In this document: positions 12,782 to 58,085 of the stretch, one piece after another
Position numbering within the stretch: position 1 is the first letter of the stretch
How the letters are laid out: every line of letters begins with the position of its first letter
DNA from: Paraflavitalea soli
GTDB taxonomy: Bacteria > Bacteroidota > Bacteroidia > Chitinophagales > Chitinophagaceae
Direction of reading: 5' to 3'
Length of the DNA stretch: 64,000 nucleotides
Assembly (NCBI RefSeq): GCF_003555545.1
Contig: NZ_CP032157.1
Coordinates: 5,026,546-5,090,545 of the forward strand
Notes under the pieces: model-generated
The model's database searches: none
What the model saw: only the letters and a program-made list of their open reading frames with translations
Told to the model about the DNA's origin: nothing
Position numbers and translations under genes: made by a program

Positions 12782-12822
12782 ATTTTATTTTGTTAAATTT
12801 GACTATATCAGATTATACGGGT

Positions 12823-18251: not shown

Positions 18252-18316
18252 GCAATCGTTACTTTAATGAAGATACCTTAATTGGTGGTTTGCAATGTAA
18301 AAGAAGCTGAGGGTAC

Positions 18317-18342
18317 AACCATCCTGTAGCTACAGGATAGTT
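18317..18342. promoter_or_regulatory. Palindromic candidate activator site between GH31 and DUF6250 genes
   Basis: ATCCTGTAGCTACAGGAT (18321-18338) is a perfect 18-bp palindrome, and four more bases on each side pair with one mismatch. It lies about 70 bases from the GH31 start and 41 bases from the DUF6250 start. The ATCCTG half is the same word found upstream of four other pectin operons in this window. Weak -7-like boxes occur at about the same distance on each side (TACATTGC at 18292-18299 on the minus strand, TAACTTAC at 18359-18366 on the plus strand). Confidence 0.6.
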
Positions 18343-30669: not shown

Positions 30670-30679
30670 ATAGCGGTTG

Positions 30680-30724
30680 AAAAGGTAGCATGCTATCAAG
30701 TTTTCTCCATCCTGTACTGTTCTG
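30680..30724 (-). promoter_or_regulatory. Candidate promoter and activator site of the PL11-CE12-GH105-GH2 operon
   Basis: On the plus strand, ATCCTG (30709-30714), TACT, then GTTCTG (30719-30724). Exactly 21 bases separate ATCCTG from TACCTTTT (minus strand, 30680-30687), which fits a Bacteroidota -7 box. Only 10 bases lie between the box and the PL11 start codon, so the transcript should have a very short leader. Confidence 0.6.
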
Positions 30725-30748
30725 AAGTTAAAGAAGCTGCGAGCCATG

Positions 30749-30832: not shown

Positions 30833-33418
30833 CTATTGCTTCGTCACTTTCGTCGTAATCGTTTCGTCATTGTATTTGATCTTCACCAGGTACCATCCTG
30901 CAGTCCAGGAAGCACCCAATTGTTTCCTGCTTTGTGCTGTACCTTTTTCAATCAGGCGTCCTGCTGCATCATAGGCTTCGTATTCAAAAGCACCCGGGGC
31001 TGTTAACTGGAAGCTGCTGGCGGAAGGATTGGGAAATACGGCTACTTTAATACGTTCCTCAGTTGTTGGGATTGTATTGGTTGCTATCCTGGCACTGGCG
31101 CAAGCGACCGCCACCGGATTGCTGCCTGTGATGGTGATATTATCAATATTGGCCGGACCTGTAGCATTGACTGCTTCGAGCCGCAGGTTGACGGTACCTG
31201 CCGGCAAGGAAACATTTACAGAAGCGGTAGTCCAGGTGGTCCAGTCGGCAGTAGCCGGGAAACTGATACTGGCCACAGCAGTGCTGCTATTCACCAATAA
31301 CCTGGATGGCCTGTCGGCGCCACCGCCATTAGAATAACGCCAGCTAAGGGTATAAGATCCGGCAGCAGGTGTTGTGATGCGCCAGTTGACTCCGCTATTG
31401 GCCACATTATTGGCATTGGCAAAACCCGTTCCGGTAAACCCTGCATTGTTATTGTCTACCGTTCCATCCACACTACAGAAGCCGGTGGTATTTTCTTCAA
31501 TGGTGATACCGTTGCCAGTGGGCGGCGGCGGAGCGCCTACCATCACAATGTTGGGCGTGGGCGGCGTATTCATATCTGTACCGAGATAAAATCCCGGATG
31601 CGGCGGTTGGTTGTAGGCTCCGTTTTGCCAGGCAATGGCCATGCGGTATTGCGGATCATGCATTAAGGTGTAAATGCGGTTGGTGGCCAGGATGGTAGTA
31701 GTATATATCCTTAGTGCACTGTTGTCAGAAGCGCGGAGGATCACTTCTTCCCGCCAGTCGCCCAATACATCGGCGCTCAGGGCCGGTGTGGCTTTGGTGC
31801 TGTTGTTGGATGCTGTACCACTGGCCGATAATAAAGTACTGACAGTAGAAGAAGTATAATTCCATTTGCTGATGGTGGTACCGTCGAGCAATTCGCGGGA
31901 AAGATCAGCATCCCACCACACGGCAAAATTGATAGAGGGTTTGGTGGTCGTGATCTGTACACCCTTTACGGTATACAGGCCGCCGCGGGAAGCCCAGCAT
32001 TCGTATCCTTTGTAACGCGGATCAATATCTGCTGCCAGGCCACGACCTACATCGGCACTAGGTTCGGCCACTGTCCACAGGCGTGCGCCGGTAGCGGCGT
32101 TTACGAGGGCGGCGCCTACCTGTCCATTACTACCCGGGCTTTCATAAGGCTGCCATATTTCCAGACCTGCCCTGTCGGGGTCCATATCACTTACATGCAG
32201 AGCGTCGCCATGGCCCATACCATTGGCCCAGGAGCCGATACCATTGTCGTTGACGGCGCTGGAACCGTTGATGGTTTCCTGTTTGCCATCGCCATCAATA
32301 TCGGCTACACTCATCTGGTGGTTACCCTGGCCTGCATAGGCGCTGTTGCCTGAGTTGTTGCTGTCAAAGTTCCAGCGTTGAGTGAGTGATCCGTTGCGCC
32401 AATCCCAGGCTACGCGCACGAGGCGGGTATAATATCCACGTCCGAATACCATGCTGGGGCGTTGTCCATCGAGGTAGGCCATACAGGCTATGAAGCGGTC
32501 TACCCGGTTTCCATAGTTATCACCCCATGATGAAACTGTTCCCCTGGCAGGCAGGTAATTGGTAGTAGCCATGGCTGCACCTGTTTGCCCATTGAATACG
32601 GTGAGAAATTCCGGGCCTGTGAGTACATAACCACTGGTATTGCGGTAATCAGCAGAAGAGCTGCCGATATAAGTTCCTACTCCATCGCGGGTGGCATCGG
32701 CTGTCTTGCAAGCCATTTCCGCTTTGCCATCGCCATCAAAATCATACACCAGGAACTGCGTGTAGTGTGCGCCCGCCCTGATGTTGCGGCCCAGGTCAAT
32801 GCGCCACAGGCGGGTGCCATTGAGCTTGTAGGCATCGATGTACACATTGCCGGTATAGCCGGATTGTGAATTGTCTTTTGCATTGGTGGGGTCCCATTTC
32901 AGGATGATCTCATACTCTCCATCACCATCAAGATCGCCTACGGATGCATCATTGGCGGTGTAGGTATAAGCTTCACCGCTGGGTGTGGTACCACCTGCTG
33001 GTATTTGCAGCGGCACATTGAGGTAGGCCTGCGTGGTAACGCCTGCGCCTGTTGAGGCAGCTTGTTCTACACCACCGATCACCGGGCGTACGGTATAGGT
33101 ATTATTGGTGGTGATATTGTCTACCACGTTGGTAGAAGCTGTGATGGGGCTGGCATTGATCTTAGTGGTACCGCGGTATACATTAAAACTGATACCCGCA
33201 GGATCGGTGCCCAGTAAACGCCAGCCAACGTATACCTCGCTGCTGCTGGTGCGTACGGCCACTACACCCCGGCCCAGGTATTCCATCTGGTATTGGGCCT
33301 GCATGGTGCTACTGATCAATAAAAAGGAAAGGAGAAAAGATAACTTGCGGCTGGTAAAGCGGTTCCGTTGGGGGCGCAGGCAGGCACCCTCTACAGAATA
33401 AGGTAGAGAACATTTCAT
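30833..33418 (-). CDS. Rhamnogalacturonan lyase, PL11 with CBM and T9SS sorting domain
   Basis: An 861-residue PL11 lyase. The signal segment RKLSFLLSFLLISSTMQAQ is preceded by a 24-residue leader; no closer ATG exists. The catalytic part matches the downstream paralogue (YQMEYLGRGVVAVRT, VGDLDGDGEYEIILKWD, VYDFDGDGKAEMACKTAD, LGDWREEVILRA, YTLMHDPQYRMAIAWQNGAY). After PPPTGNG a CBM35-like domain follows (ITIEENTTGFCSVDGTVDN to NIDNITITGS), then a T9SS C-terminal domain (VAVFPNPSASSFQLTAPG, WYLVKIKYNDETITTK). It should be exported by the type IX system and act outside the cell, giving fragments for SusCD uptake. Single-gene unit with its own candidate promoter. Confidence 0.94.
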   Translation of the reverse strand: MKCSLPYSVEGACLRPQRNRFTSRKLSFLLSFLLISSTMQAQYQMEYLGRGVVAVRTSSSEVYVGWRLLGTDPAGISFNVYRGTTKINASPITASTNVVDNITTNNTYTVRPVIGGVEQAASTGAGVTTQAYLNVPLQIPAGGTTPSGEAYTYTANDASVGDLDGDGEYEIILKWDPTNAKDNSQSGYTGNVYIDAYKLNGTRLWRIDLGRNIRAGAHYTQFLVYDFDGDGKAEMACKTADATRDGVGTYIGSSSADYRNTSGYVLTGPEFLTVFNGQTGAAMATTNYLPARGTVSSWGDNYGNRVDRFIACMAYLDGQRPSMVFGRGYYTRLVRVAWDWRNGSLTQRWNFDSNNSGNSAYAGQGNHQMSVADIDGDGKQETINGSSAVNDNGIGSWANGMGHGDALHVSDMDPDRAGLEIWQPYESPGSNGQVGAALVNAATGARLWTVAEPSADVGRGLAADIDPRYKGYECWASRGGLYTVKGVQITTTKPSINFAVWWDADLSRELLDGTTISKWNYTSSTVSTLLSASGTASNNSTKATPALSADVLGDWREEVILRASDNSALRIYTTTILATNRIYTLMHDPQYRMAIAWQNGAYNQPPHPGFYLGTDMNTPPTPNIVMVGAPPPPTGNGITIEENTTGFCSVDGTVDNNNAGFTGTGFANANNVANSGVNWRITTPAAGSYTLSWRYSNGGGADRPSRLLVNSSTAVASISFPATADWTTWTTASVNVSLPAGTVNLRLEAVNATGPANIDNITITGSNPVAVACASARIATNTIPTTEERIKVAVFPNPSASSFQLTAPGAFEYEAYDAAGRLIEKGTAQSRKQLGASWTAGWYLVKIKYNDETITTKVTKQ

Positions 33419-33585: not shown

Positions 33586-33630
33586 TAAATTTAGCGTATC
33601 CTTCACAGTTGGCTATCCTGTACTGTCATG
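33586..33630 (-). promoter_or_regulatory. Candidate promoter and activator site of the T9SS PL11 gene
   Basis: Plus strand: ATCCTG (33615-33620), TACT, GTCATG (33625-33630). Exactly 21 bases separate it from TAAATTTA (minus strand, 33586-33593), a -7-like box. The leader to the start codon would be about 160 bases. The TACT spacer is the same as upstream of the other PL11 operon. The outer half overlaps the stop codon of the SRPBCC-like remnant. Confidence 0.55.
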
Positions 33631-33769
33631 GGATTTCTTCAGCCCGTTTCTTTTCCACTTGCAATATATTATTCTGGATATCTTTCATGATCCATTTGGC
33701 CCACCAGCCGGCATAGAAGTTGAAAGTGGTGGTCAACTTAAAATGACTGTAGAGGTGGACCTCACTTTT
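33626..33769 (-). pseudogene. 3' remnant of an SRPBCC/START-like gene
   Basis: The minus strand encodes about 46 codons without a start: EVHLYSHFKLTTTFNFYAGW, then WAKWIMKDIQNNILQVEKKR and AEEIP, followed by TGA. This reads like the last strand and the long C-terminal helix of SRPBCC (polyketide-cyclase-like) proteins. The frame is closed by a TGA just upstream, and its beginning overlaps the 3' end of the unrelated secreted-protein gene at 33762. The missing 5' part was not found in the next kilobase. It therefore marks a recombination or insertion junction. Confidence 0.6.
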
Positions 33770-34298
33770 TCAAAGCAAAATGTCCCCCATTAGGGTGTAG
33801 CCCCTGGCAGTCACAGGTTGTGAAATCATTGCTGACCACCCATATTAAGTTTTGTTTATTCCTGTTGTACCAACTCCTGACAGCCGCCTGGAACCGTATC
33901 CTGTTTTGCCTGCTTCTCCGCAAATGGTTCCAATAGGAGCAATAGCCGCAGCCAGCCTGGTCAAACTTAACACCCAGCAGTTCAAAAGTGGGAATATCCT
34001 GTATGATCTCCTGCAAGGCGCTATAGGCGATATCGCCAACAGTCCATTGTCCGCCGAAATTAGGGACTACTGCCCTGGTCGTAGAGACATCGGATAGTTT
34101 ATCTATCAGCAGCGGAATGATGGCTTGCTTTTGTTGCACTACCCGCCAGAAAATTTTGTCGCCACAACCATCTGCTACTTCACAGATATAAGGCATATCT
34201 GCCACCAACTTCAGGCTATCTACCAGTTTTTGGTGACTGGTTGATTGAGCAACCGTCAGTAATGGAAAGAGTGCAAATAAAATGGTCCAGTGCTTCAT
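33762..34298 (-). CDS. Exported hypothetical protein, cysteine-rich
   Basis: A 178-residue protein with signal peptide MKHWTILFALFPLLTVAQST. It has seven cysteines after the signal, including YICEVADGCGDKIFW, DQAGCGYCSYWNHL and DFTTCDCQGLHPNGG, which could form disulfides in the periplasm. The central part (KQAIIPLLIDKLSD, VGDIAYSALQEIIQDIP) looks like HEAT-type helices. I do not recognise the family. It ends on the junction with the SRPBCC-like remnant and is 9 bases downstream of another exported unknown protein, so the two may form an operon. Confidence 0.75.
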   Translation of the reverse strand: MKHWTILFALFPLLTVAQSTSHQKLVDSLKLVADMPYICEVADGCGDKIFWRVVQQKQAIIPLLIDKLSDVSTTRAVVPNFGGQWTVGDIAYSALQEIIQDIPTFELLGVKFDQAGCGYCSYWNHLRRSRQNRIRFQAAVRSWYNRNKQNLIWVVSNDFTTCDCQGLHPNGGHFALKK

Positions 34299-34307
34299 GG
34301 GGTCAAA

Positions 34308-34994
34308 TTAATTATCGACCAATATTTTTGTCGAATACTCAGTGATGAAATCCTTTAAGAAGGAATCAATAAATGCGTTCGTGCTGCCATCCTTTTTCAG
34401 GCTTTCTTTTAGCTTCTTATACTCGTCGGTTTCTTTAAATGCCTGGAATTGCTGCGCTTTAAATTTTTCATATTCCTTGTGTCCGAGCTTCTTTTCCCGG
34501 GTCAGTTTTCCCTGGCCAATTTCAAGCAGGATATAGTTTTCATAGGTTGACCCATAACCCATGTGCACATAATTGATCCGCTTGCCGCAAGGCAATACCA
34601 GCAATCCTGTAAACCAGTCGATGTTGATCACACGCTGATCGGGAAAAACCTCGTTGAGTACACTCATCCACTTATAGCTATGTTCCCTGGCTGTATCAAC
34701 AATTTGAATTTCAATATCCTTCAGCAACAATTGATTGTCTTTTATTTCAAAAGTGGCCACATAGCCCCTCCACAAAGCGGTTGACTGAACACCATCTTTG
34801 GGTTTTCTGCCGGGGTTCTTTTCGAAAAAGACTTCCAGCGGATTGGTGTGCATGGCATATTCCTTCCCGTTGTACCATACCTTATCGGGGTATTGGGCGG
34901 TAGCCGATGCCTGCAAAGAGAAAGCAACCGAGAGTATGACCAATGTGACTGCCTTCAAGACCATTTTTGCCGAATGCCGTGTAGATTGTTTCAT
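34308..34994 (-). CDS. Exported hypothetical protein, 228 residues
   Basis: Signal peptide MVLKAVTLVILSVAFSLQAS with a short basic leader before it (start at 34994; Met at 34964 is the alternative). The mature protein reads YPDKVWYNGKEYAMHTNPLE, YVATFEIKDNQLLLKDIEIQ, VNVDWFTG-like (INIDWFTGLLVLPCGKRI) and a charged C-terminal helical part rich in Lys and Glu (EKKLGHKEYEKFKAQQFQ). It probably acts in the periplasm. No family recognised. Same strand and close spacing as the cysteine-rich gene downstream suggest joint transcription. Confidence 0.75.
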   Translation of the reverse strand: MKQSTRHSAKMVLKAVTLVILSVAFSLQASATAQYPDKVWYNGKEYAMHTNPLEVFFEKNPGRKPKDGVQSTALWRGYVATFEIKDNQLLLKDIEIQIVDTAREHSYKWMSVLNEVFPDQRVINIDWFTGLLVLPCGKRINYVHMGYGSTYENYILLEIGQGKLTREKKLGHKEYEKFKAQQFQAFKETDEYKKLKESLKKDGSTNAFIDSFLKDFITEYSTKILVDN

Positions 34995-35403: not shown

Positions 35404-35778
35404 ATGAGTTCAAACAACAAGGGCGGTCGGGATCCTGTCCATGACAACATCCTCAAGATCGCAGTAGCCCGTGAGTATCTAAGTAGTGATCTGGGCTATA
35501 TGAAATTGGCTATCAAGTATGGTCTTCCTGGTCCAAGTACAGTCCGGCATTTTGTAAAATGGTATAAGGCAAACTATCCCACGGGAGAAATACCACCTGT
35601 CCAGCCGACACAACAATCGCAGCAGCCTGCCACAACCAGTGAAGTAGAAGAACTCAGAAAGCAATTACAACAGGCCAATCTCAAAGTAGCAGCCTGGGAA
35701 ATGTTACTTGAAAATGCCGGTAAGGAGCTGGGAGTGGACATTGTAAAAAAGTTTGGTACCAAACAGTCCGGCAAGTGA
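35404..35778 (+). CDS. IS3-family transposase OrfA
   Basis: A 124-residue protein, the DNA-binding helix-turn-helix subunit: KIAVAREYLSSDLGYMKLAI, GLPGPSTVRHFVKWYK, then a helical leucine-zipper-like part (EVEELRKQLQQANLKVAAWE). Near its end the A AAA AAG heptamer at 35745-35751 is in the correct phase for -1 frameshifting; the shifted frame reads on into OrfB without a stop. The stop TGA overlaps the GTG of OrfB. Confidence 0.92.
   Translation: MSSNNKGGRDPVHDNILKIAVAREYLSSDLGYMKLAIKYGLPGPSTVRHFVKWYKANYPTGEIPPVQPTQQSQQPATTSEVEELRKQLQQANLKVAAWEMLLENAGKELGVDIVKKFGTKQSGK
35745..35751 (+). promoter_or_regulatory. Programmed -1 frameshift heptamer A AAA AAG
   Basis: The heptamer is read GTA AAA AAG TTT in OrfA. 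Slipping back one base gives AAG then GTT TGG TAC, leading through TVRQVKQHYPQ into OrfB with no stop. This is the classic IS3 arrangement for making the OrfAB transposase. Confidence 0.75.
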
Positions 35779-36686
35779 AACAGCACTATCCTCAGGCAGC
35801 GATAGGCACACTTTGCGCATTGTTTGGTAAAACAAGGCAGGCTTATTATGAACATGGATGGCAGGCGGCCAACGGGCAGTTGCGGGAAGAACTTGTATTG
35901 GACCTGGCAACACAAGCACGCAAAGTCTTAAAGAAAGAAGGCGCTGTGAAATTGCTGGGCTCTCTGCGACCAGCGCTGCAGGCGCATAACATCAGGATGG
36001 GCAGGGACCGTTTTTTTAAGTTACTCAAAAAGCATAACATGTTGCAAAAGCGCAAAAGGAGCCATGCACGTACCACCTGGTCCGACCACCCTTATAGAAA
36101 ATGGCCCAATCTGATCAAAGGACTGGAAGTACTAAAGCCTCAGCAACATTGGGTGAGCGACATTACCTATCTGCGGACAGAAAAGGGATTTATGTACCTG
36201 TCGTTGATAACGGATGCCTATTCCAGAAAAATAGTCGGTTATCATGTAAGCCAGAACCTGCGGGTCCAGGGATGTCTGATAGCCCTGAACAAAGCTATCA
36301 GGTCCTTAAAAGACTATGTACCCCAAAGTCTTATCCACCACTCAGATAGAGGGATACAATACTGCTGTGACCAGTATGTAAGTGTATTACAAACAAATCA
36401 GATCCGCATCAGTATGACCCAGACAGGGAGTCCGTATGAAAATCCGGTTGCAGAAAGGGTAAACGGCATCCTTAAAACAGAACTGGATTTGGATAGGGTT
36501 TTTGAAGGCTATAGCCAGGCAACAAGCGTTACCCATAACGCCATTGACCTGTATAACCGGCTGCGCCAACACATGAGCTGTGATAACCTTACACCTGATC
36601 AGGCTCACCTTAGAGAGGGAAAATTGAAAAAAAGATGGAAGCCCAGGAAACGTAAAAACAATCCGGGTGACCAACAAAGTTCCTAA
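35775..36686 (+). CDS. IS3-family transposase OrfB (DDE integrase core)
   Basis: A 303-residue catalytic subunit starting at a GTG that overlaps the OrfA stop. The retroviral-integrase-like core has all three acidic residues: Asp129 (HWVSDITYL), Asp191 (LIHHSDRGIQY) and Glu227 (NPVAERVNG), with 35 residues between the last two, the DD(35)E spacing of IS3. The N-terminal HTH_21-like part includes LFGKTRQAYYEHGW. No internal stop, so the element could be active. It is more likely made as an OrfAB fusion by frameshifting than alone. Confidence 0.94.
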   Translation: MKQHYPQAAIGTLCALFGKTRQAYYEHGWQAANGQLREELVLDLATQARKVLKKEGAVKLLGSLRPALQAHNIRMGRDRFFKLLKKHNMLQKRKRSHARTTWSDHPYRKWPNLIKGLEVLKPQQHWVSDITYLRTEKGFMYLSLITDAYSRKIVGYHVSQNLRVQGCLIALNKAIRSLKDYVPQSLIHHSDRGIQYCCDQYVSVLQTNQIRISMTQTGSPYENPVAERVNGILKTELDLDRVFEGYSQATSVTHNAIDLYNRLRQHMSCDNLTPDQAHLREGKLKKRWKPRKRKNNPGDQQSS

Positions 36687-38126: not shown

Positions 38127-39020
38127 CTATTTCCAAATACTCTCCTGTGTCCAGTTACTGGTAAAGCCCAGGGCATCTGCCTTAATTACCGGATTGCCGG
38201 ACACTAAGTTGATTATATTTTCCTTAAACCCGGAGTTTGATTTTAAAGTAAGCAATAAATATTGAATGCAACATAGGACCGAATATATTTTGGACACATC
38301 CAGTTCATCGACATCCAGTAAAAAACGGTTTTTCTTTCGGGCAGGCATGGTAGGTTTAATGGTCAGGTTTCTATCCAGAATTTTTGCATGATGAGCACAT
38401 AGGTTGCGGACGTAGGTAAATGAATGCAACCAGGAGGAGAGGATATTGTCATGTGTTTTTAAATAGGCCGAAACACTAACCCGGTCATCGGTATTCAAGA
38501 TACCATCATAAACCATTGATACTTTTCCAAATGACAACACTTCCATGATCATCCAGGAGGGAGGTAAAACAGGGTCGCTATAAGTTTGTTTATATTTTTT
38601 TATAAAGTGTTCATCCGGATTATTTTTGCAATACTCCGTTATCTCGGTTAATAACGATTGATGATAGTAGGAAAAACCAGGTTTGAAGATCTCAGCAATT
38701 TCCAACCAATGTGAGCCATACTTACATGCCAGGGTATTATTGATCAACGCTTTTATAGCGACTTCGATATCAGCGATAGCGTCGAATAAGTTTATACGCA
38801 GTACCTTATCAAACTCATACAAACCCTGAATGTCTTTGATAATAGTTCCATTCCTGAATTTATTGTCCTTTTTGAAGTATTTCATGTAGTTGTTCAACCG
38901 GAAGTAACCGACCGACGTCAAAACTCCTCTGACAGTATCTACATTGTCTATTGTAAGATTATTGTGTTGAAGCAGGGCAAGCTGTTCCCCTATGTTAAGC
39001 GGAGGATCTGTGTATTTCAT
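38127..39020 (-). CDS. Abi_2-family abortive-infection protein (HEPN RNase fold)
   Basis: A 297-residue cytoplasmic protein of the AbiD/AbiF-like group. N-terminal LNIGEQLALLQHNNLTIDN and VGYFRLNNYMKYF are the family opening (GYxRLxxY); FDKVLRINLFDAIADIEVAI follows, then PPSWMIMEVLSFGKVSMVYD. The HEPN motif R-N-x3-H is complete: Arg205, Asn206, His210 in FTYVRNLCAHHAKILDRN. Such proteins stop phage growth, probably by cleaving RNA. The gene is more AT-rich than its neighbours and stands alone between carbohydrate genes, which suggests it arrived by transfer. No partner toxin/antitoxin gene is visible. Confidence 0.88.
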   Translation of the reverse strand: MKYTDPPLNIGEQLALLQHNNLTIDNVDTVRGVLTSVGYFRLNNYMKYFKKDNKFRNGTIIKDIQGLYEFDKVLRINLFDAIADIEVAIKALINNTLACKYGSHWLEIAEIFKPGFSYYHQSLLTEITEYCKNNPDEHFIKKYKQTYSDPVLPPSWMIMEVLSFGKVSMVYDGILNTDDRVSVSAYLKTHDNILSSWLHSFTYVRNLCAHHAKILDRNLTIKPTMPARKKNRFLLDVDELDVSKIYSVLCCIQYLLLTLKSNSGFKENIINLVSGNPVIKADALGFTSNWTQESIWK

Positions 39021-42820: not shown

Positions 42821-44980
42821 TTAAGGCATCTTTCGCAACCCCTCCCACTTAACGGTCCAGGTAGTTGCAGGGAAACCCGGATTAGGGGTTTTATCGGCAT
42901 CGGATCCGGCACACATCAAGGCAATGGCACTCAACAAGCCACCGTTGCCCGGCAGGTAAATCGTTAGTCTTTCATCCTGAAAATTGTGGCCATTGACAAG
43001 GTAAGTATTGGTTCGAACCGGTAGGAATAAGGCATCTATGGCTTTTTCCGGCAAATGCAACCGCGTGGCAGCCATGGCGGTGAGTGGAAAATCCCACCCC
43101 CAGGTATCTTCCCATTTCCACACCTTCCACACAAGATCAAAGGTACTCTTCATGACAACGGTATCCAACTGATTGCTGCCTGGAATGGAAGCATAAGTAG
43201 CCAATACAGCCGGATGATCGGTCTTATAGCGATCAGTCGTATAACAATCCGGTGTACTTTCAGTAGCAAGATACACTCCATTGGCCTGAGGTAAAGGGGC
43301 CAGGCCATTAATAATTTTATCCCAAGCCTCCTTGCGGGGTAATCCCAGGCGTATCCGCCACCGCTGGGCCACATTCAATGCCCAATGCCAGTAAGCCAGT
43401 TCATAAGTGGGATTAAACGTAGTTACTGCATCGAAGCATTCCTGGGCGGGGATCAACCCTTTGCCCAGGTTGTATTTTTTCTTCACCGGGTCCCAGGATG
43501 GAAAGGAAGCCATGAAATCGGCGGTAGCAAATACGAGGTCCTTGTATTTATCCAATACCTTCCTGGTTTTCTTTTCCCGGTAACAGAGTTCCGCCATATA
43601 AATAAAATGCGGCTGTTGCCAGATGAGAAAGGAGCCTACGGAAGATGGCGCTTCATGACCGGCATGGTCTGTCATCTTCTGCCAGCGCAGGCCATCAAAG
43701 CCCTGGCGTTTGGCAATTGCCTTCGCACCATCGGCAACTGTTGCATACCAGTCAAGGCTATTTTCCATCAATTCTATCCTGCCCCATAAAGCAAAATGTA
43801 CGGCATGCCACCAATGCATTTCCAGGTGAGGCTTGCCATACCAACTGTTGTAGGTAAGGCCGGTTTCCTGTGGCGGAAAATTGGATGCACATTGTATTTT
43901 GGTAAGGTATTGGGATAAGATCATCCTCCTTTCCAGCTCAGGTGCGCGGCTGTCTTTACTGCCGGCAAAGTCAACAGCACCACCGCTACGCCAGAATTGG
44001 GCCCAGCCAGACTGACTGTTGCGGGTCGTTTCTTCAAAAGACGGTAGCTTCTTTTTGGAAGCGTTTGCTGTAAACAGAAAACTGGCTTCAAAAGTATTGG
44101 CCCCGGCTTCAGGTGTGATTATAAAATGATGTGCAACGCTTTTTTGTATGGAGGCTTTTTGTTTCCAACTGGCCTGTACTTCGTATTGAGTAGTATCAAG
44201 CTGGTGACGAATAGCGACCACTTCACCGGCAGGCACGGGCAGACCGCTCATCGGGGGCAAACTGGTTTTTAAAACCGTTGTATGCTTATTGGCATTATTA
44301 TCATTCACCCCCACATCTTTAAACTCGCCATTGGGATACGGGAAATGAATGGTAAGGACCAGCTTCTTTTGCTTTATCAGTGGCGATACGATCTTCACAG
44401 CCACCACGTCTAATTGCTGGTGTGCATACGTGATCACCTGCACAGGCTGGCCTTCCACGGTGAACCGGCTATTGATCTCACCCGTCCACATATCCAATTG
44501 CTGATCAATATTCTCAATATCGGTAATGCCGGCCGGTTGACCATTCTTTTTAATGATCTCCAATCCAACATTGCCCAATTGCAGGCGATGGGGATTGACA
44601 CGGAAATAATCCGCCGCTTTTTTATTGCGCTCCGGCTCTTTCACCTGCACGGGATAAGGTATCTTTTTACCTTCCAACTCATAGGTGCGCAGGGTTTCTT
44701 CAAATTTGTAGTTGTCCGTATTGGGAAAGCTATGCCAACCCCATTCGGATTGTGTGCCCAATGGAACACCTCCTTTGTAGAAATTGGGAAAACTTTGCAG
44801 ACCGGTAACATCTACGGTAAAAGCAAAGCCGCCATTACCTATAGAAAGGGAGGATAAGGAGTCCGCTTTGTTGATGTGAATGGTGTGACGGCGTACCACG
44901 GCCTGGCGATCGATGGTTGATTGTTGTGCATGCGCTACATAACAAGTAAGCGATAATATACCTATTGCTATACATTTCAT
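42821..44980 (-). CDS. GH65/GH95-like six-hairpin glycosidase, unassigned
   Basis: A 719-residue exported protein from MKCIAIGILSLTCYVAHAQQ. (A start at 45043 would place the dispersed repeat in the coding region and is rejected.) The N-terminal beta-sandwich reads LSIGNGGFAFTVDVTGLQSF, GVPLGTQSEWGWHSFPNTDN; the helical barrel has ETGLTYNSWYGKPHLEMHWW, where the Glu of HLEMHWW is at the position of the general acid in related clan-GH-L/GH-M-like enzymes, then IWQQPHFIYMAELCYREKK, and WKWEDTWGWDFPLTAMAATR. I cannot assign a CAZy family. Context suggests an exo-acting enzyme on RG-I fragments. Confidence 0.72.
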   Translation of the reverse strand: MKCIAIGILSLTCYVAHAQQSTIDRQAVVRRHTIHINKADSLSSLSIGNGGFAFTVDVTGLQSFPNFYKGGVPLGTQSEWGWHSFPNTDNYKFEETLRTYELEGKKIPYPVQVKEPERNKKAADYFRVNPHRLQLGNVGLEIIKKNGQPAGITDIENIDQQLDMWTGEINSRFTVEGQPVQVITYAHQQLDVVAVKIVSPLIKQKKLVLTIHFPYPNGEFKDVGVNDNNANKHTTVLKTSLPPMSGLPVPAGEVVAIRHQLDTTQYEVQASWKQKASIQKSVAHHFIITPEAGANTFEASFLFTANASKKKLPSFEETTRNSQSGWAQFWRSGGAVDFAGSKDSRAPELERRMILSQYLTKIQCASNFPPQETGLTYNSWYGKPHLEMHWWHAVHFALWGRIELMENSLDWYATVADGAKAIAKRQGFDGLRWQKMTDHAGHEAPSSVGSFLIWQQPHFIYMAELCYREKKTRKVLDKYKDLVFATADFMASFPSWDPVKKKYNLGKGLIPAQECFDAVTTFNPTYELAYWHWALNVAQRWRIRLGLPRKEAWDKIINGLAPLPQANGVYLATESTPDCYTTDRYKTDHPAVLATYASIPGSNQLDTVVMKSTFDLVWKVWKWEDTWGWDFPLTAMAATRLHLPEKAIDALFLPVRTNTYLVNGHNFQDERLTIYLPGNGGLLSAIALMCAGSDADKTPNPGFPATTWTVKWEGLRKMP

Positions 44981-45013
44981 ATATGGGTATTCACAGTTAA
45001 AAGGCATTACTTT

Positions 45014-45183
45014 CTTCTTTGTCATTTCGCCCTTCTTTGTCATTTCAACCCCTTCTTTGTCATTTCGACCCCTTCTCTGTCATTTCGACCGCAGGGAGAA
45101 ATCCGCTATCGAAGCAAACAGATTTCTCACTCCGCTGCGCTCCGTTCGAAATGACAAAGAGGGAAAGTCGAAATGACAAACCA
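45014..45183. repeat. Tandem 20-bp repeats joined to a palindromic GTCATTTCGACC element
   Basis: Four units of CTTCTTTGTCATTTCGACCC (period 20) occupy 45014-45090; the last runs into GCAGGGAGAAATC, a spacer, GATTTCTCACTCCGCTGCGC and TTCGAAATGACAAAGA, which is the inverted counterpart. This is the 'GTCATTTCGACCG...GAGAAATC' type of dispersed intergenic repeat in Bacteroidota. A partial copy is at 48209-48241. It occupies the space before the GH65-like gene, so any promoter of that gene lies in or next to it. Confidence 0.85.
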
Positions 45184-48759: not shown

Positions 48760-51627
48760 TTATTGTATTACCCGCGATGGGTCGGGCTGCTTAATTCGTA
48801 CTTTATCCATATATACTATTGGCGTAATAGTAACCTCACTTGTCAACCCGGCAGGTTTGGGTGTCCAGTTAACCGCTGTGAACAGTCCATCGGCCCCACG
48901 ATTAGCTGGCAGCCTCGACGGGAAATTGGTATTGTAAAATTTCTTCCAGTGTACTCCCTTCTTATCCATATCTGCAATGCGGTTAGCCATGCCATTGGTC
49001 ACTTTTATTTCCAGCTGGTTATTGTCTTTCAATGATCCTGCCGGAAGCACTACCTGGAATACCGGGCCGATAAGGGTAGTCACGCGTTTCCCATTCAGGA
49101 ATACCTCTGCTGTCTCCTGCACATTGCCCAGGTCGAGCAGGAAATCCTGCACCTTGCCTGCCGGCTTTGCAAAGCTGGTAGTATAAGAAGCTGTGCCGGA
49201 GAACTCCTTCAGACCGTCTCCTGCCCAGGTGGTCCAGGAAGTCAGTTGTGTAGTAGTGGTGGCAGCAGGCAGCGCAGGGCCACCGCTCAGAAAGGATATC
49301 TTCCAGGTGCCCCCGATCTTCACTGGATTGCCGGCAACCGCATAATAATTATAGGGACTGCTGGCATCTGCTGTGGGTGTACTTTGCAGCACACAACTTT
49401 CGCCCTGGTTGAGCTGCAGATACACGGCTGTTTGCCCGCCTTCCTTCCTCACCATTGTTTTCCCGGCCTTCCCCGTCATTGGATCGAATACCGTGATATG
49501 CTCTGCAGTAGTAGCGAGGTTTACCCAGGCATCCACCCGTTGATTACCGGTATTGGTAATGAAATAATATTTGCCGGCCGGTATGGCCCGGCGTATACAT
49601 TGTAATCCTTGTACGGCCATGGTTTCCTGCGGCACTTTGGCGGCAGACAATAATTGCTGCATGTCATCGGCCATCACAAAACGGCCTTTCCCCACAAGTG
49701 CCTGTTGCACGTCATTAGCAGTGCTGAATGATAACCGGGCCAACAATTGCTTAAACGCAGCCTGGCGATTGACCAGGTCGGAATAACCCGGTACATCACC
49801 GGGCAAAGACTTATGCACCAGGATGGTGGCGCCATTTTGCGCCAGCGTAACCAGTTTTTGCAGGGTTTCCAGTGGCAGGTACTTTGTTTCTGCCAACAGG
49901 ATGGTCTGATAGGCATTGCCGCCTGATAACAACCCCGCACCCTTATTGCTTACTAATTGCAATTGCTTATCAGAAAACAGGTCGAATGCATAACCATGTT
50001 CCAGCATCCAGCTGGCGCTGCTCTTAAAATCAGTATTGTCAAACCCTTCCATTCCATCAAAATGATGCAGCAGGTCGCGCCCCGGCTCTGCAAAGCGGTC
50101 ATAGATGGGGAAATACATTAACACATCATTGTCGGGTTTACCGGCTTGCAGGAATGACTGACAGCGGGCCACATATTGATTGAGGGTAGGGAAATCTTTC
50201 CAGAAAGGATTGTTGGGATGAAAATGTACAGCGGCATAAAACAACCAGCCTGGCCAGGGATCGTTCTTGGGTGTATAATTGGTACCATGATAGAAGATAT
50301 GGTTCACACCCCCAATGAAATATTTATCCAGCGCCACTTTCACATCACCCAGGCTGGATTGAAAATGCTCATTGAGCCAGGTGGCTGCTTCTGCTGATGC
50401 CAGCGGTTTGCCCAACACATGGGTGGTGGAAGTAGCAAACTTAAAACGTAAGATATCGGTACCCTCTGTTTCTGGAATATCGATAGCCCCATACAGGTCG
50501 AGGATATTGGCAGGTGATCCATGCGATTGGTTGCGGACCAGCGAGCCTTTTGCTTTTGCCCAGCTATGCCAGGGGGTAGTGAATTTTTCCAGCAGCAATT
50601 CGGAAATGGTTTGCCGGTAATCGCTCAATACACGGGTATTCTTCTCTTTGGTATCCTTGCCATACAAGGCTGGTAATTCCTTGCGCAGGTCATAGCCACG
50701 CCTTTGTTGAAATACCTGCAGCATATCGGGTGTCCAGTTGGCTTGCCCACGTGCATCATCTACCTCGTACGAGTCGTTGAAGAAAGAGCGGATGCCTTTG
50801 AGGTTCTTACCGGCAAAGGCTTTATCAAAATATTGCAGGTAATGCTGCAGAGCAGGTAAGGAAAAGTGGTCTATCACATCACCCTCTCCACCGGGTGCTG
50901 CCCGCTCTACCATTTTACCATGCCAGCCCTGGAACAGGGCATACAATGTCCAGTTGCCCGAGGGGGCTATCCAATTAAGTGTTCCATCGGTGCCTACTTT
51001 AGCAGTAATGTCCTGACTGTTTCCTTTCTCATCATAAGCCATCAGTAAGCTGAGGGGCAATTGCTTTTCATAACGCACCTGGTCAAAAGCGTATTCCTGC
51101 AGGTTCTTATTGGTGGCAACGGGATAAGACAATGTTTTTATATCTACAGGTTTACCACTCACTGTGCGTACCATGGGTTGCTGGGTAAAAGTGATCTTCT
51201 CCGTGAGTTGCTCACCTTCCTTCAGTGTCCAGGTCTTCAGGTTTACATTTTTGCAGGCATCGGTGGGCGTAACCCAGGGACCACCAAAGGGCCAGCCAGT
51301 ACCCGTGGCCAGGTCAATACCCAGGTTAAAGCTTTTGGCTTGCTGTAAGGTGTATTCCAGCATACTCACCCATTGGGTAGAGAGGAAAGGAATGAACTGT
51401 TGTTCGGCTCCCCGCACTCCATAAATAGGCGTTATTTCCAGTCCGCCAAGGCCCGCCTGCTGGTATTGCTGCATGGACCATTGCAGGTCTGTTTTATTGA
51501 CGGCGCTGCCTTCCCACCACCAGCGTGTCCAGGGTTTGGCAGTTTGGGTGATAACGGGCCATTTAGCCTGTGGGTAAGCCTCTATAATTGCAAAAAGTAA
51601 GCAAGCAATGAAAAACAACTTTTTCAT
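48760..51627 (-). CDS. GH106-type alpha-L-rhamnosidase
   Basis: A 955-residue exported protein from MKKLFFIACLLFAIIEAYPQ. The N-terminal barrel of GH106 is clear: PWTRWWWEGSAVNKTDLQWS, MQQYQQAGLGGLEITPIYGV, FNLGIDLATGTGWPFGGPWV, then KGIRSFFNDSYEVDDARGQA, where the acidic residues DSYEVDD lie at the expected active-site strand, and DILRFKFATSTTHVLGKPLA. C-terminal galactose-binding-like domains follow (FLLDLGNVQETAEVFLNGKR). GH106 removes terminal rhamnose from pectin fragments. Its upstream region carries the shared ATCCTG site, so it is probably the first gene of a unit with the NTF2-like gene, GH2 and perhaps the GH65-like and DUF4450 genes. Confidence 0.9.
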   Translation of the reverse strand: MKKLFFIACLLFAIIEAYPQAKWPVITQTAKPWTRWWWEGSAVNKTDLQWSMQQYQQAGLGGLEITPIYGVRGAEQQFIPFLSTQWVSMLEYTLQQAKSFNLGIDLATGTGWPFGGPWVTPTDACKNVNLKTWTLKEGEQLTEKITFTQQPMVRTVSGKPVDIKTLSYPVATNKNLQEYAFDQVRYEKQLPLSLLMAYDEKGNSQDITAKVGTDGTLNWIAPSGNWTLYALFQGWHGKMVERAAPGGEGDVIDHFSLPALQHYLQYFDKAFAGKNLKGIRSFFNDSYEVDDARGQANWTPDMLQVFQQRRGYDLRKELPALYGKDTKEKNTRVLSDYRQTISELLLEKFTTPWHSWAKAKGSLVRNQSHGSPANILDLYGAIDIPETEGTDILRFKFATSTTHVLGKPLASAEAATWLNEHFQSSLGDVKVALDKYFIGGVNHIFYHGTNYTPKNDPWPGWLFYAAVHFHPNNPFWKDFPTLNQYVARCQSFLQAGKPDNDVLMYFPIYDRFAEPGRDLLHHFDGMEGFDNTDFKSSASWMLEHGYAFDLFSDKQLQLVSNKGAGLLSGGNAYQTILLAETKYLPLETLQKLVTLAQNGATILVHKSLPGDVPGYSDLVNRQAAFKQLLARLSFSTANDVQQALVGKGRFVMADDMQQLLSAAKVPQETMAVQGLQCIRRAIPAGKYYFITNTGNQRVDAWVNLATTAEHITVFDPMTGKAGKTMVRKEGGQTAVYLQLNQGESCVLQSTPTADASSPYNYYAVAGNPVKIGGTWKISFLSGGPALPAATTTTQLTSWTTWAGDGLKEFSGTASYTTSFAKPAGKVQDFLLDLGNVQETAEVFLNGKRVTTLIGPVFQVVLPAGSLKDNNQLEIKVTNGMANRIADMDKKGVHWKKFYNTNFPSRLPANRGADGLFTAVNWTPKPAGLTSEVTITPIVYMDKVRIKQPDPSRVIQ

Positions 51628-51762
51628 GGGTAACAACTTAACACCAGGTGTAATTTAAAACAACAGGAGAATAAATGAAGGATAATATAGGGCAACACCC
51701 TATTACGGGCCTGCCTGGAGCAGATGGTTTCATATAGCAATAATTTAGTGTTAACCTAATGT

Positions 51763-51807
51763 CTAAAGTAGGCCCCTAAGGCTATTGAATCATCCTGACC
51801 TATCCTG
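51763..51807 (-). promoter_or_regulatory. Candidate promoter and activator site of the GH106 unit
   Basis: Plus strand: ATCCTG (51792-51797), ACCT, ATCCTG (51802-51807), a perfect direct repeat with a 10-base period. Exactly 21 bases separate it from TACTTTAG (minus strand, 51763-51770), a -7-like box differing from TAnnTTTG at one position. The leader would be about 130 bases. Confidence 0.6.
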
Positions 51808-54776: not shown

Positions 54777-57700
54777 TTAAAAAGTAATGTTCACACCAAT
54801 GATGAGCGACCGGGGTAAAGGAAGTCCGCCATAGTCACCCGCTTCGGGGAATGCTGTACTTCCGCTCAGATCGGTATTGGTGGCTTCGGGATTGAAGCCT
54901 CCTTTGTAGCGGTCATGACCAAAGAAATTTTCGGCAGTGATATAGATGCGGGCAGCCTGCAATACATGCTTTGCTTTGATCAAGCGGCCGGCGTCATACC
55001 CCAGAGTGATATTACGCACACGAACATAATCGGATGGGTACAGCCAGTCGGTATTAATGATACGGCCAAAAGTAGAATAGGCTTTGCCGATCTGTCCGGC
55101 ACCCGGATCGGATGGAGAACGCCAGCGGTCGCGGAAGGTACCCAGTGCATTGTCTGTAAACCCTTGTCCTGTTCTCCCCAGCGCACGACCCAGCAGTGAA
55201 TAAATGGAACCACCCCACTGGCCCTGCACCAATACCGTAAGGTCAAATCCTTTGTACCGGAAATTATTGGTGATGCCCCAGATATAATCTGGATTGGGAT
55301 GCCCAACGATCATACGGTCATTGGCATCTATGACACCATCATTTGAATAATCGAAATATTTGGGATCACCCACTGTCTGAGAACCAAAGAGTGCAGCGCC
55401 CTTGTTGATATCATCCTGGGTGAGGATACCATCCTGGCGCACGGCATATATGGCGTACATAGGCTGGCCTACTTTCAGGATAGCGTGGGAAATATCAAAA
55501 GAAGAAGGGATCAGTATCTGATCCTGCCCACCTGCCAATGCCACTACCTTATTCGTATTATGACTCAGGTTGGCGGAGGTAGTCCACTGAAAAGCACCGG
55601 TCATATTGCGGGTGGTCAGTTCTATTTCCCAGCCTTTATTCCTGGCTTCGCCTGCATTGCGGAGATAGTTGGAAAAACCGGTAGCACCGAGCACGGGTAC
55701 ATTCAGCAGGAGATCGGTGTTGAGTTTATTGTAATAATCAAAGGAAGCGGTGATGCGGTTGCTCAACACACCAATATCAAATCCTACATCGATGGTCTCG
55801 GATTTTTCCCAGCTCAGCGCAGGGCTAGTGATACCGGTGGGCGACTGGCCTACCACCTGTGTACCGTTGAAGTTATAGTTATTGAAACCCAATACAGCAA
55901 TAGAACTGTAATCACCAATATTGTAATTACCGGAAGTACCCCAACTGCCCCGCAGCTTCAGATCACTGATGAAAGTTACATTACGCATAAATGATTCTTC
56001 CGAGATCCTCCAGCCAATGGAAGCTGAAGGAAACCAACCCCAACGGGTGTCCTCCCCAAAGCGGGATGATCCATCGCGTCGTAAACTGGCGGATAGCAGG
56101 TACTTACCATCATATCCATATTGTACTCTTCCAAAATAAGAGATCAACACATTCCTCGCTTCGCCGGTATTGCCGGTAATGGCAGCTGCGGCGTTCAAGG
56201 TAGTAATGTAATCGTTGGTAAATCCATTGGAAGAGTTGATGCGCACATTGTCGATCTTATCGGAATTATAAGAGATGCCACCCAGGGCAGAGATATCATG
56301 CACGCCCCCAATGGTCTTGTTGTAGGAAAGTGTATTCTCATTCACAAATGTCTGCCGGCGAAAGCTGGTATAGGAACCCGATGTCAGCGCTGTTTGCTGT
56401 GCTATGCGGGTAGGCAATGTACTGGCAATAATATAGGGAACATAACCCTTGGTATTGTTATCGGTATTGTCCAGGTTGAGGGTTGTTTTAAAGGTAAGTC
56501 CTTTGATGATCTGGTATTCACCAAACAGAGAAGTGAGGGTGCGAAAACGTTTGGTTTGCCCAACAGTATATTTCAATTTGGCAATAGGACTATTGGGTGA
56601 TACGCTCCAGCGGTATTGACCATCCTGGTCTACATTGGGATAAATGCCCATGGTATCTTCCTGCACGGGTGTAAAACTTACCAGTTGGTGCAGGATATTG
56701 TCCTTGCCTTCCACACCGGGATCGTTGGTAATAGAATAGGTAGGCGACAGGTTGATACCGAATTTGAGCTTCTTACTGGCATTGATCTCTACATTGGCGC
56801 GGGCCGAATAGCTGGTATAATCCATATAATGGACCATACCTTCCTGCCGGGCAAAATTACCGGAGACATAATAACGCACATACTCATTACCACCGCTGGC
56901 AGCTATCTGGTGATTTTGGGTGAGCCCTTTGCGGAAACCTTCATCCTGCCAATCTATATAGCGCAACCCCGGGTGGCCTGGCTGGGTCCACCGGTCATCG
57001 GTCATATAACTGGTGTTTACAGCGCCGGGCGCCAGGCCGAGCATCACACGACGCTGTTCATTGGTTTGTGCGGCGGTCCTTCCTGATCCGGAAGCCACCC
57101 ATTGCGCATTGATCATTTCCGTAGCCCTGTCTACCCACTCATCCGCACTCAGCATATCGAGCTTGCGGCTACGTTCTGAATAACCAACATAGGTGTTAAA
57201 AGAGACTTTCGGTTTACCCGTCTGTCCCCGCCGGGTAGTGATGAGTACAACCCCATTGGCTGCGCGGGAACCATAGATGGCAGCCGCTGCTGCATCTTTC
57301 AATACCTGGATGGACTCAATATCATTGGGGTTGATATTATCAAGGGGATTACCCAACGCATAATTGCCGGAACCATTAGGAGCAGCGCCTGATAAGGGGA
57401 AACCATCAATGACATACAGCGGTTCATTACCTGCCGTAATAGAACCAGTACCTCTTACCTGTATGCTCAGTCCTTTACCCAGCGCTCCGGTAGTCTGCTT
57501 CACTGCTACACCTGCCATCTGACCTACCAATGCCTGGTCTACCCGCGTAACAGGGCGTTCATTCAGGGTTTTGGCATCAAAGGTGGATACCGCGCCTGTT
57601 ACATTTCTTTTCTTTTGGGTACCATATCCAATGACCACCACATCATCCAATGTTTTATTCGCAGCATGAAGTGTTACTGTCAGGGCAGACTGATTATTCA

Positions 57701-57992
57701 ACGGCACTTCCTGCAATTCATATTCTATATGCGTAAAGATCAGCACCGCATTCCCGGAAGGTGCTGTTAGCTTAAAGGTGCCGTCGTCTTTGGTAAGCGT
57801 GCTGCTATTGCTTCCTTTCACCTGAATGCTTACGCCAGCCACCGGTTTGCCGGCTTCATCGGTTACTTTGCCCGAAATACCAATACCGTTCGCATTGGTA
57901 TCACCCTGGGCATGAGATTGCTTTGGAAGGAGGGGACCTATAAGACATAGCAATAACAGAACAGATCGTAGCAGGAACGATTGTAGTTTCAT
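54777..57992 (-). CDS. SusC/RagA-type TonB-linked outer-membrane transporter
   Basis: A 1071-residue TonB-dependent transporter with signal peptide (LLRSVLLLLCLIGPLLPKQS). Order: carboxypeptidase-regulatory-like domain (GISGKVTDEAGKPVAGVSIQ), TonB-box region DDVVVIGYGTQKKRNVTGAV, plug (QALVGQMAGVAVKQTTGALG, IRVRGTGS-like QVRGTGSITAGNEPLYVIDG, IESIQVLKDAAAAAIYGSRA) and the 22-strand barrel ending LPRSLIIGVNITF. It imports oligosaccharides into the periplasm with the SusD partner downstream. First gene of SusC-SusD-CE12; the promoter carries the ATCCTG direct repeat, so it is probably induced by pectin fragments. Confidence 0.97.
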   Translation of the reverse strand: MKLQSFLLRSVLLLLCLIGPLLPKQSHAQGDTNANGIGISGKVTDEAGKPVAGVSIQVKGSNSSTLTKDDGTFKLTAPSGNAVLIFTHIEYELQEVPLNNQSALTVTLHAANKTLDDVVVIGYGTQKKRNVTGAVSTFDAKTLNERPVTRVDQALVGQMAGVAVKQTTGALGKGLSIQVRGTGSITAGNEPLYVIDGFPLSGAAPNGSGNYALGNPLDNINPNDIESIQVLKDAAAAAIYGSRAANGVVLITTRRGQTGKPKVSFNTYVGYSERSRKLDMLSADEWVDRATEMINAQWVASGSGRTAAQTNEQRRVMLGLAPGAVNTSYMTDDRWTQPGHPGLRYIDWQDEGFRKGLTQNHQIAASGGNEYVRYYVSGNFARQEGMVHYMDYTSYSARANVEINASKKLKFGINLSPTYSITNDPGVEGKDNILHQLVSFTPVQEDTMGIYPNVDQDGQYRWSVSPNSPIAKLKYTVGQTKRFRTLTSLFGEYQIIKGLTFKTTLNLDNTDNNTKGYVPYIIASTLPTRIAQQTALTSGSYTSFRRQTFVNENTLSYNKTIGGVHDISALGGISYNSDKIDNVRINSSNGFTNDYITTLNAAAAITGNTGEARNVLISYFGRVQYGYDGKYLLSASLRRDGSSRFGEDTRWGWFPSASIGWRISEESFMRNVTFISDLKLRGSWGTSGNYNIGDYSSIAVLGFNNYNFNGTQVVGQSPTGITSPALSWEKSETIDVGFDIGVLSNRITASFDYYNKLNTDLLLNVPVLGATGFSNYLRNAGEARNKGWEIELTTRNMTGAFQWTTSANLSHNTNKVVALAGGQDQILIPSSFDISHAILKVGQPMYAIYAVRQDGILTQDDINKGAALFGSQTVGDPKYFDYSNDGVIDANDRMIVGHPNPDYIWGITNNFRYKGFDLTVLVQGQWGGSIYSLLGRALGRTGQGFTDNALGTFRDRWRSPSDPGAGQIGKAYSTFGRIINTDWLYPSDYVRVRNITLGYDAGRLIKAKHVLQAARIYITAENFFGHDRYKGGFNPEATNTDLSGSTAFPEAGDYGGLPLPRSLIIGVNITF

Positions 57993-58039: not shown

Positions 58040-58085
58040 TAAAATTAGATAAGCTGTCACTAGTATTCATCCTGAACCATCCTGA
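58040..58085 (-). promoter_or_regulatory. Candidate promoter and activator site of the SusC-SusD-CE12 operon
   Basis: Plus strand: ATCCTG (58069-58074), AACC, ATCCTG (58079-58084), a perfect direct repeat with a 10-base period. Exactly 21 bases separate it from TAATTTTA (minus strand, 58040-58047), a -7-like box 47 bases before the SusC start codon. The 10-base spacing puts both halves on one face of the helix, as for AraC-type regulators. Confidence 0.65.

Follow-up and report, generated by a model that had tools for sequence, protein, structure and literature searches.

Known regulators of rhamnogalacturonan and rhamnose loci

The regulation of PULs is known mainly from Bacteroides, where the best-described regulators are membrane hybrid sensors. 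According to the accessible passages of PMC3878776, AraC-type hybrid sensors act at RG-I loci of Bacteroides through motifs whose sites measure 12-16 bp and are spaced by about 21 bp. HTCS_Rgu-1 and HTCS_Rgu-2 of B. thetaiotaomicron, as far as the available text describes them, are membrane hybrid sensors that use direct repeats, with sites of 12-14 bp and spacers of 9 or 6 bp, to regulate RG-I loci containing SusC/D, PL and GH genes. The locus described here likewise combines direct repeats with RG-I genes, but its units are 10 bp long and its candidate sensor would be a cytoplasmic sugar sensor. For rhamnose, the available part of PMC3870299 describes a Bacteroides RhaR of the AraC type with a 21-bp periodicity, as well as DeoR-type RhaR motifs with direct repeats of 10-11 bp; the word GntR was not found in that part of the text. 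The Bacteroides RhaR (BT3768) governs rhamnose transport and catabolism, as the regulator proposed below would do, but it belongs to the AraC family, uses a 21-bp direct repeat and, in the passages available, has a single-operon regulon. The DeoR-type motifs match our element in their period, whereas the candidate reader here is a GntR protein.

GntR operators are usually palindromes in the accessible descriptions, with direct-repeat exceptions for NanR (TGGTATAW), NagQ (TGGTATT), FarR and the MocR types. In these exceptions, as proposed here, a GntR winged HTH acts on head-to-tail repeats, and some MocR proteins activate; however, they belong to other subfamilies with other sensors, the MocR repeats lie far apart, and no description of a 21-bp placement relative to a -7 box was found for NanR, NagQ, FarR or MocR in the accessible passages. 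The AraR subfamily (Bacillus subtilis AraR) resembles our candidate in combining, by Pfam, a GntR winged HTH with a LacI/GalR sensor and in lying beside a sugar operon. The candidate differs from it in that its element is a head-to-tail 10-bp repeat rather than a palindrome, its regulon includes outer-membrane polysaccharide genes, and the position of its operator suggests activation. FucR (BT1272 of B. thetaiotaomicron) is another Bacteroidota regulator of the GntR family that acts on a 6-deoxyhexose operon but, in the accessible text, it governs a single operon. As for promoters, the passages available of PMC7366714 give a Bacteroides consensus of TTTG near -33 and TAnnTTTG at -7, and state that in Flavobacterium johnsoniae the -33 box was not found. 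We found no report of a GntR rhamnose regulon of the kind described below in the accessible portions of the literature (including PMC3878776, PMC3870299, PMC4494728, PMC5320631, PMC5507952, PMC7366714, PMC9296495 and PMC11253607).

Tandem elements upstream of the pectin operons

We analyzed a stretch of 64,000 nucleotides of the Paraflavitalea soli genome, here called the window (5026546-5090545 of the single 8.44-Mb contig). Its pectin block contains, by Pfam, two PL11 genes, two PF07470 (GH88/GH105) genes, and GH2, GH106, SusC/SusD, sulfatase and GH31 genes, and the GDSL esterases found by Pfam are those called CE12 in a preliminary description of this DNA. That description had reported ATCCTG direct repeats upstream of SusC, GH106, a T9SS PL11 gene and a PL11-CE12-GH105-GH2 operon, each 21 bases from a -7 box. 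The repeat was present at all four places, and the distance was 21 bases in 4 of 4. The elements and their target genes are as follows, in window coordinates.

58069-58084, minus strand: predicted tandem operator CAGGATGGTTCAGGAT, upstream of SusC (SusC1)
58041-58047, minus strand: -7 box TAATTTT, 21 bp downstream of the SusC tandem element
54777-57992, minus strand: SusC-type TonB-dependent receptor, target gene
51792-51807, minus strand: predicted tandem operator CAGGATAGGTCAGGAT, upstream of GH106
51764-51770, minus strand: -7 box TACTTTA (one mismatch to TAnnTTT) of the GH106 promoter
48760-51636, minus strand: GH106 alpha-L-rhamnosidase (PF17132), target gene
33615-33630, minus strand: predicted tandem operator CATGACAGTACAGGAT, upstream of T9SS PL11
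33587-33593, minus strand: -7 box TAAATTT of the T9SS PL11 promoter
30833-33418, minus strand: target gene for a PL11 rhamnogalacturonan lyase that matches CBM_6 and Por_Secre_tail
30709-30724, minus strand: predicted tandem operator CAGAACAGTACAGGAT, upstream of the PL11-CE12-GH105-GH2 operon
30681-30687, minus strand: -7 box TACCTTT of the PL11-CE12-GH105-GH2 operon promoter
28792-30669, minus strand: second PL11 lyase, gene 1 of that operon, target gene

The first half-site reads CAGGAT at SusC and GH106, CATGAC at T9SS PL11 and CAGAAC at the PL11 operon. When an exact CAGGAT was required together with an upstream half at 10 bp (at most 2 mismatches) and TAnnTTT (at most 1 mismatch) at a gap of 21, four sites were observed in the window; 300 first-order Markov simulations gave 0.027 sites on average and never more than 1. 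Alternative gaps of 12-31 gave 0 or 1 site each (21 excluded), and alternative periods of 6-25 gave 0-2 sites each (10 excluded). A matrix built from 37 sites outside the genus also placed the four sites, all intergenic, at the top of the window (32.1, 27.8, 22.9 and 20.8 bits). Apart from these and a fifth site described below, nothing in the window exceeded 10 bits, the next match being intragenic at 9.9 bits. Mechanical ORF calling places the start of the second PL11 at 30747, upstream of its tandem site; its true start is likely the ATG at 30669. From the TA of the -7 box to this ATG (30669-30687) there are 18 nt, a distance that is the same in the congeners G002 and G004 and different in G001, and the mRNA may therefore be nearly leaderless.

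Several other genes lie in or near the block. An insertion-sequence integrase gene is found within it at 35404-36686 (rve match 35775-36686), and an Abi_2-like gene at 38127-39020 lies between its GH43 and DUF4450 genes. A 740-aa protein without a Pfam match is encoded at 42821-45043 within the block, and the products of 33762-34298 and 34308-34994 likewise have no Pfam match. In the left part of the window, 12790-14262 encodes a MocR-type regulator (GntR HTH plus aminotransferase).

Conservation and promoter geometry

Within the genus, a search of four further genomes (G001-G004) found both PL11 genes in three; in G003 it gave no PL11 match across the lyase domain. At both PL11 promoters, the repeat and the 21-bp gap were unchanged in G001, G002 and G004. 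The GH106 repeat was retained in G001 (L131:1582) and was present as the variant CAGGACAGCGCAGGAT in G002 (L134:2839). Since SusC1 orthologue promoters were absent from the congener stretches examined, conservation within the genus extends to three of the four sites.

We then surveyed 79 PL11-bearing loci (1.505 Mb) for CAGGATR-N3-CAGGATR with at most one mismatch and with no -7 box demanded. Of 48 matches, 46 had the same strand as PL11 and 2 the opposite one; the gap to TAnnTT was 21 in 28 of them and 20 in 9, and any other gap occurred at most twice. Pairs of CAGGAY in these loci were most often 10 bp apart (42 pairs), followed by 9 bp (10 pairs), with at most 4 pairs at other distances and 2 at 21 bp. 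Sites for a matrix were picked with one -7 box mismatch allowed, a criterion under which 29 of the 79 loci had a site and 50 had none. Three scan matches (0, 14 and 42) were left out, two because they had no fitting downstream gene and one because it was judged a chance match despite a PL11 gene downstream.

The resulting 56-site matrix reads CAGGATRSNN CAGGATRS N19 TAnnTTT, with CATGAY, CAGAAC and CATAAC as half-site variants. A purine follows the two half-sites in 56/56 and 55/56 sites, in two columns that were not used for selection. The second half-site ends 21 (20-22) bp from the -7 box. This TAnnTTT-like box corresponds to the -7 element of sigma-ABfr promoters, and the final G of TAnnTTTG is present in 18/56. 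A -33 TTTG at a spacer of 17-23 was found in 0/56 sites, the region being mostly covered by the repeat. If the box is taken as -7, the tandem units lie at about -48 to -33, in agreement with the earlier view that the repeat stands in place of a normal -33 element.

Specificity in the genome and target genes

The preliminary description had offered CAGGAT-N21-TAnnTTT as a pattern for genome scans. This bare pattern gave 15 matches in 8.44 Mb, 3 of them in the window; therefore, a half-site with a -7 box is insufficiently specific. The full tandem element performed better. We used two sequence-only models, R1 from the 56 sites and R2 from the 37 sites outside the genus. The six best R1 matches in the genome lay before SusC2, SusC1, PL11, GH106, rhaT and the PL11 operon, a ranking that is circular on its own because all six are training sites. 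With R2, RG-I or pectin-related promoters took ranks 1 to 8, in support of a single regulon: SusC2, SusC1 and GH106 came first (E below 0.02), followed at E values of 0.022-0.145 by a pectinesterase, a fasciclin-lipoprotein/SusCD operon, a GH78 rhamnosidase, T9SS PL11 (rank 7, E 0.09) and GH31 (rank 8, E 0.145). The PL11 operon was weak (rank 14, E 1.25), and the genome's own rhaT site fell below the R2 threshold. Pfam bore out the pectinesterase, GH78 rhamnosidase and fasciclin genes at the R2 sites. The fasciclin-domain lipoprotein gene and its SusC/SusD-like neighbors lie to the right of the window (L016:2132-9169), divergent from SusC2, with an element of their own at 5091670 on the plus strand.

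Elements were found in Chitinophagaceae, Sphingobacteriaceae, Flavobacterium, Chryseobacterium and Belliella. Genes behind the sites in the PL11 loci were relatives of SusC, PL11, GH105, GH106, GH2 and CE12 (BLAST against window proteins) and, by sequence reading, GH28, acetylesterase, GH95 and rhaE. Two further searches, described in the next section, yielded 56 match loci, in which genes were called by reading, with Pfam for ten class and six second-set loci. Among the 26 class-search loci (L184-L209), 14 have a rha, fasciclin, SusC-type or pectin-type GH gene downstream (rhaT/rhaE in 3, fasciclin lipoprotein in 3, SusC-type in 5, and one each of GH105, GH106 and GH31), two are followed by glycan genes of other kinds (GH141 and a BNR repeat gene), five have unrelated or unclear targets (phosphofructokinase, two oxidoreductases, a permease-like ORF and one unknown), and five have no called gene after the element. 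In the second set (L240-L269), 26 of 30 loci precede rhaT, fasciclin, SusC, PL11, GH2, GH28, GH105, CE12 or acetylesterase genes; the remainder comprises one beta-helix protein, one ambiguous 378-residue stretch, one locus with no called gene, and L255, whose site was not recovered. Fasciclin genes occur at 9/56 match loci, two sites sharing one gene. Judging by these targets, the element is a marker of both RG-I digestion and the uptake and catabolism of rhamnose, although some matches fall outside this pattern. The regulon is thus wider than pectin and includes L-rhamnose uptake and catabolism.

The elements before the phosphofructokinase gene (L190) and the GFO/IDH/MocA-type oxidoreductase genes (L192, and L200 by reading), in G035 and G206, are either chance matches or a sign that the regulon reaches into central metabolism.

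A candidate regulator beside the rha operon

The only full regulator among 30 Pfam-scanned window proteins is the MocR-type one, and our candidate lies outside the window, where the regulator had been expected. A rha operon, rhaT-rhaE-rhaM-rhaI-rhaB, lies about 30 kb beyond the right end of the window, and divergent from rhaT is a gene for a 361-aa protein (genome positions 5120209-5121291) that we call RhaR. By Pfam, it combines a GntR winged HTH (PF00392, 40.5 bits) with a C-terminal LacI-type Peripla_BP_3 domain, the latter match being barely above the cut-off (27.3 versus 26.5 bits). The AraR DNA-binding domain (4egy) is its third-best PDB sequence match, and no DeoR model matched the rha-adjacent regulator at E<=0.001. 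This GntR-type regulator with a LacI-like domain is most likely the reader of the element. Because RhaR adjoins rhaT-rhaE-rhaM-rhaI-rhaB, we infer that L-rhamnose would be the effector of its C-terminal domain. Between SusC2 and the rha operon, Pfam also identifies a Reg_prop/Y_Y_Y sensor kinase and a LytTR response regulator (L016:18642 to L017:2800).

The GntR protein and the element occur in the same genomes. Among 247 genomes drawn evenly from the class (GntR at E<=1e-20; element by R1 at E<=0.01 with strict filters), 19 had the GntR protein, 12 had the element and 8 had both (Fisher p 1e-7). In 11 of the 19 GntR genomes, the element was absent at E<=0.01; in some of these, not in every case, the protein is a paralogue for another sugar or the rhaT promoter has diverged to CATAAC. 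The four element-only genomes (G113, G137, G175 and G202) have single matches, against a chance expectation of about 2.5 per 247 genomes, and no pectin or rhamnose gene was called downstream of the element in any of them. In a second set of 50 PL11-bearing genomes, of which 29 had a site near PL11 and 21 lacked one, 48 contained the GntR protein (E<=1e-30) and 46 the element. The exceptions were G275, G277 and G293, with the GntR protein and no element, G259, with the element and no GntR protein, and a genome titled Bacteroidales that had neither. Even among the 21 genomes that had contributed no training site, 20 had the GntR protein and 19 the element, three of these 19 by single, weak matches.

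The regions upstream of rhaT followed the same distribution. In GntR genomes, 10 of 12 scored above 8 bits (the misses being L272 and L283), and in genomes without the GntR protein all 7 scored below 0 (Mann-Whitney p 9e-4); these seven had no element match anywhere in the genome. Three rows were excluded: L285 (genome G111), in which the GntR gene lies beside other genes and a distant rhaT scores -13.4; L291, a second paralogue in G207 (-11.8); and L290, a duplicate of L284. With L285 added as a GntR genome, p was 0.004. In 3-4 of the 7 GntR-less genomes (L286, L287, L288 and perhaps L289), rhaT lies directly behind rhaI, so that its promoter may lie elsewhere and this control is weaker than its count; with the GntR-less set restricted to genomes with an upstream gap (L271, L278, L279 and L289), p was 0.007.

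Paralogues beside other sugar operons

Relatives of RhaR lie beside operons that we named by reading as galactose-type (mutarotase, galactokinase) or xylose-type. An analogous ACTGGTAGGT-type repeat was found 19-22 bp from TAnnTT in 4 of 8 galactose-type loci. These eight loci (L294-L301) hold the closest relatives of the galactose-type protein; four of them face ACTGGTAGGTACTGGTA or ACTAGTAGGTACTAGTA in the same 10-bp frame as ACAGGATAGTACAGGATAGT, and the distances to TAnnTT are 21, 21, 22 and 19 bp. A fifth locus, L298 (the same gene as L172), has a repeat with one change at 22 bp, and the remaining three showed no repeat at the threshold used. At the xylose-type locus L181, ACAGAACGGAACAGAACGG lies on the start codon of the GntR gene, and a related form occurs in L183. 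Among 57 GntR loci, an exact 7-mer repeat with period 10 was present in 12 and with period 12 in 8 (5 without low-complexity repeats).

In an alignment of 11 of the proteins, the recognition helix keeps RDT and varies in the residues after it: AEKGY/VEKAY for rhamnose, VLLAY/VLQAY for galactose and VFKAY for xylose. The helix SRDTAEKGY of the rhamnose type would go with the repeat CAGGATAGT, and SRDTVLLAY of the galactose type with CTGGTAGGT. Repeat geometry thus tracks the protein family and repeat sequence tracks the sugar, and this pattern is, in our view, the strongest argument that the GntR proteins read the repeats.

Separately, the tandem 10-bp repeats of the xylose type (ACAGAACGGA; L181:1480-1510 and L183:2490-2540), which lie on the gene's own start codon, look like sites of auto-repression.

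Mode of action and alternative explanations

We consider it probable that the repeat serves as operator in an L-rhamnose regulon for RG-I digestion and rhamnose catabolism, read by the GntR-LacI-like RhaR as an activator. RG-I lyases and rhamnosidases would free rhamnose, and RhaT would import it. Rhamnose-loaded RhaR in the cytoplasm would bind both head-to-tail half-sites on one face of the helix and would contact and recruit RNA polymerase in place of a -33 element; SusC/D, PL11, GH105, GH106, GH78 and the rha genes would be induced together. The nearly rigid distance to the -7 box would fit an activator in direct contact with RNA polymerase. PhoB at its pho box works in a similar mode, with no membership implied. 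The same protein and regulon could instead work by repression, with RhaR blocking RNA polymerase until rhamnose releases it, although we think this rather unlikely. The molecule name in PDB entry 4egy calls B. subtilis AraR a repressor, the accessible part of PMC4918961 describes GntR proteins as a large family of repressors, and in the xylose-type paralogues L181 and L183 the repeat at the GntR gene's own start codon is in a repressor position. However, a repressor needs neither a constant gap of 20-22 bp across families nor the loss of the -33 element. Both fit a sigma-contacting activator, the -33 loss being largely forced because the repeat occupies that place.

The other explanations concern the reader itself. 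The preliminary description had assigned the repeat to an AraC-output hybrid two-component system, and a single AraC DNA-binding domain can indeed contact two grooves spaced by about 10 bp; its two HTH motifs differ from each other, however, whereas the halves here are nearly identical. The element is also found upstream of rhaT/rhaE, the factor that tracks it is the GntR protein next to the rha genes, and a single AraC query protein matched in 2 of 80 PL11 loci. AraC-type HTCS do control Bacteroides RG-I loci in the accessible literature, but both their motifs and those of the AraC-type RhaR are published there as repeats of about 21 bp, against the 10 bp found here. We therefore abandoned that assignment, which now seems very unlikely. 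More improbable still are the neighboring sensor kinase and LytTR response regulator, despite their place between the two parts of the regulon in this genome, the SusC block and the rha operon: their homologues occurred in 0 of 80 PL11 loci at E<=1e-6, though 29 of 79 scanned loci carry the element, and the GntR protein occurred in 5 of the 80. LytTR proteins do bind direct repeats. We give equally little credence to the idea that the repeat is no operator but an unusual kind of promoter element, recognized by an alternative (ECF) sigma factor. Its place at -33 and its nearly rigid spacing would suit such a factor, but two near-identical 10-bp units with a normal sigma-ABfr -7 box would not, nor would the repeats of different sequence in the promoters that face the GntR paralogues.

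Returning to the activator RhaR, a broader proposal seems to us to have about even chances, namely, that GntR/LacI chimeras (for rhamnose, galactose, xylose and probably more) are class-II-like activators that read 10-bp head-to-tail operators and take the place of the -33 element, and that in many Bacteroidota beyond Bacteroidales entire rhamnogalacturonan PULs are controlled by the rhamnose member instead of a periplasmic hybrid sensor. The signal would then be a cytoplasmic monosaccharide, and pectin digestion would be switched on by its final product. If the rhamnose regulon itself is as proposed, Chitinophagaceae, Sphingobacteriaceae, Flavobacterium and their relatives would have a sequence-defined regulon with a candidate regulator, a likely signal and a promoter geometry. 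Pectin- or rhamnose-responsive genes would become predictable in many environmental genomes, including the fasciclin-lipoprotein operon, which has no obvious link to pectin, and a head-to-tail operator would be added to a regulator family known mostly for palindromes.

A fifth site and related weaker sites

The window contains one more element, which is weaker and has a single good half-site.

18293-18338, minus strand: weaker fifth element, half-site CAGGATGG (CAGGAT 18321-18326) with TACATT at 21 bp, before GH31
15774-18251, minus strand: GH31 gene, downstream of the fifth element

With the outside-genus matrix, this site ranked fifth in the window, tied at 20.8 bits. A complete repeat is present upstream of a GH31 gene in G114 (L205). 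A perfect 18-bp palindrome, ATCCTGTAGCTACAGGAT, lies at 18321-18338 between the divergent genes for GH31 (minus strand) and DUF6250 (18383-19105, plus strand). The half-site of the fifth element is one arm of this palindrome, and two CAGGAT half-sites face each other; therefore, one site may serve both GH31 and DUF6250.

Weaker CAGGACAGTTCAGGATA-like sites, several of them without a -7 box, were found elsewhere in the genome (G000:C1:740294, 663263, 665103, 699172 and 1738163). They adjoin genes read as altronate dehydratase, fucose permease/dehydrogenase, esterase/GH29-like and oxidoreductase genes, and are possibly operators of related regulators.
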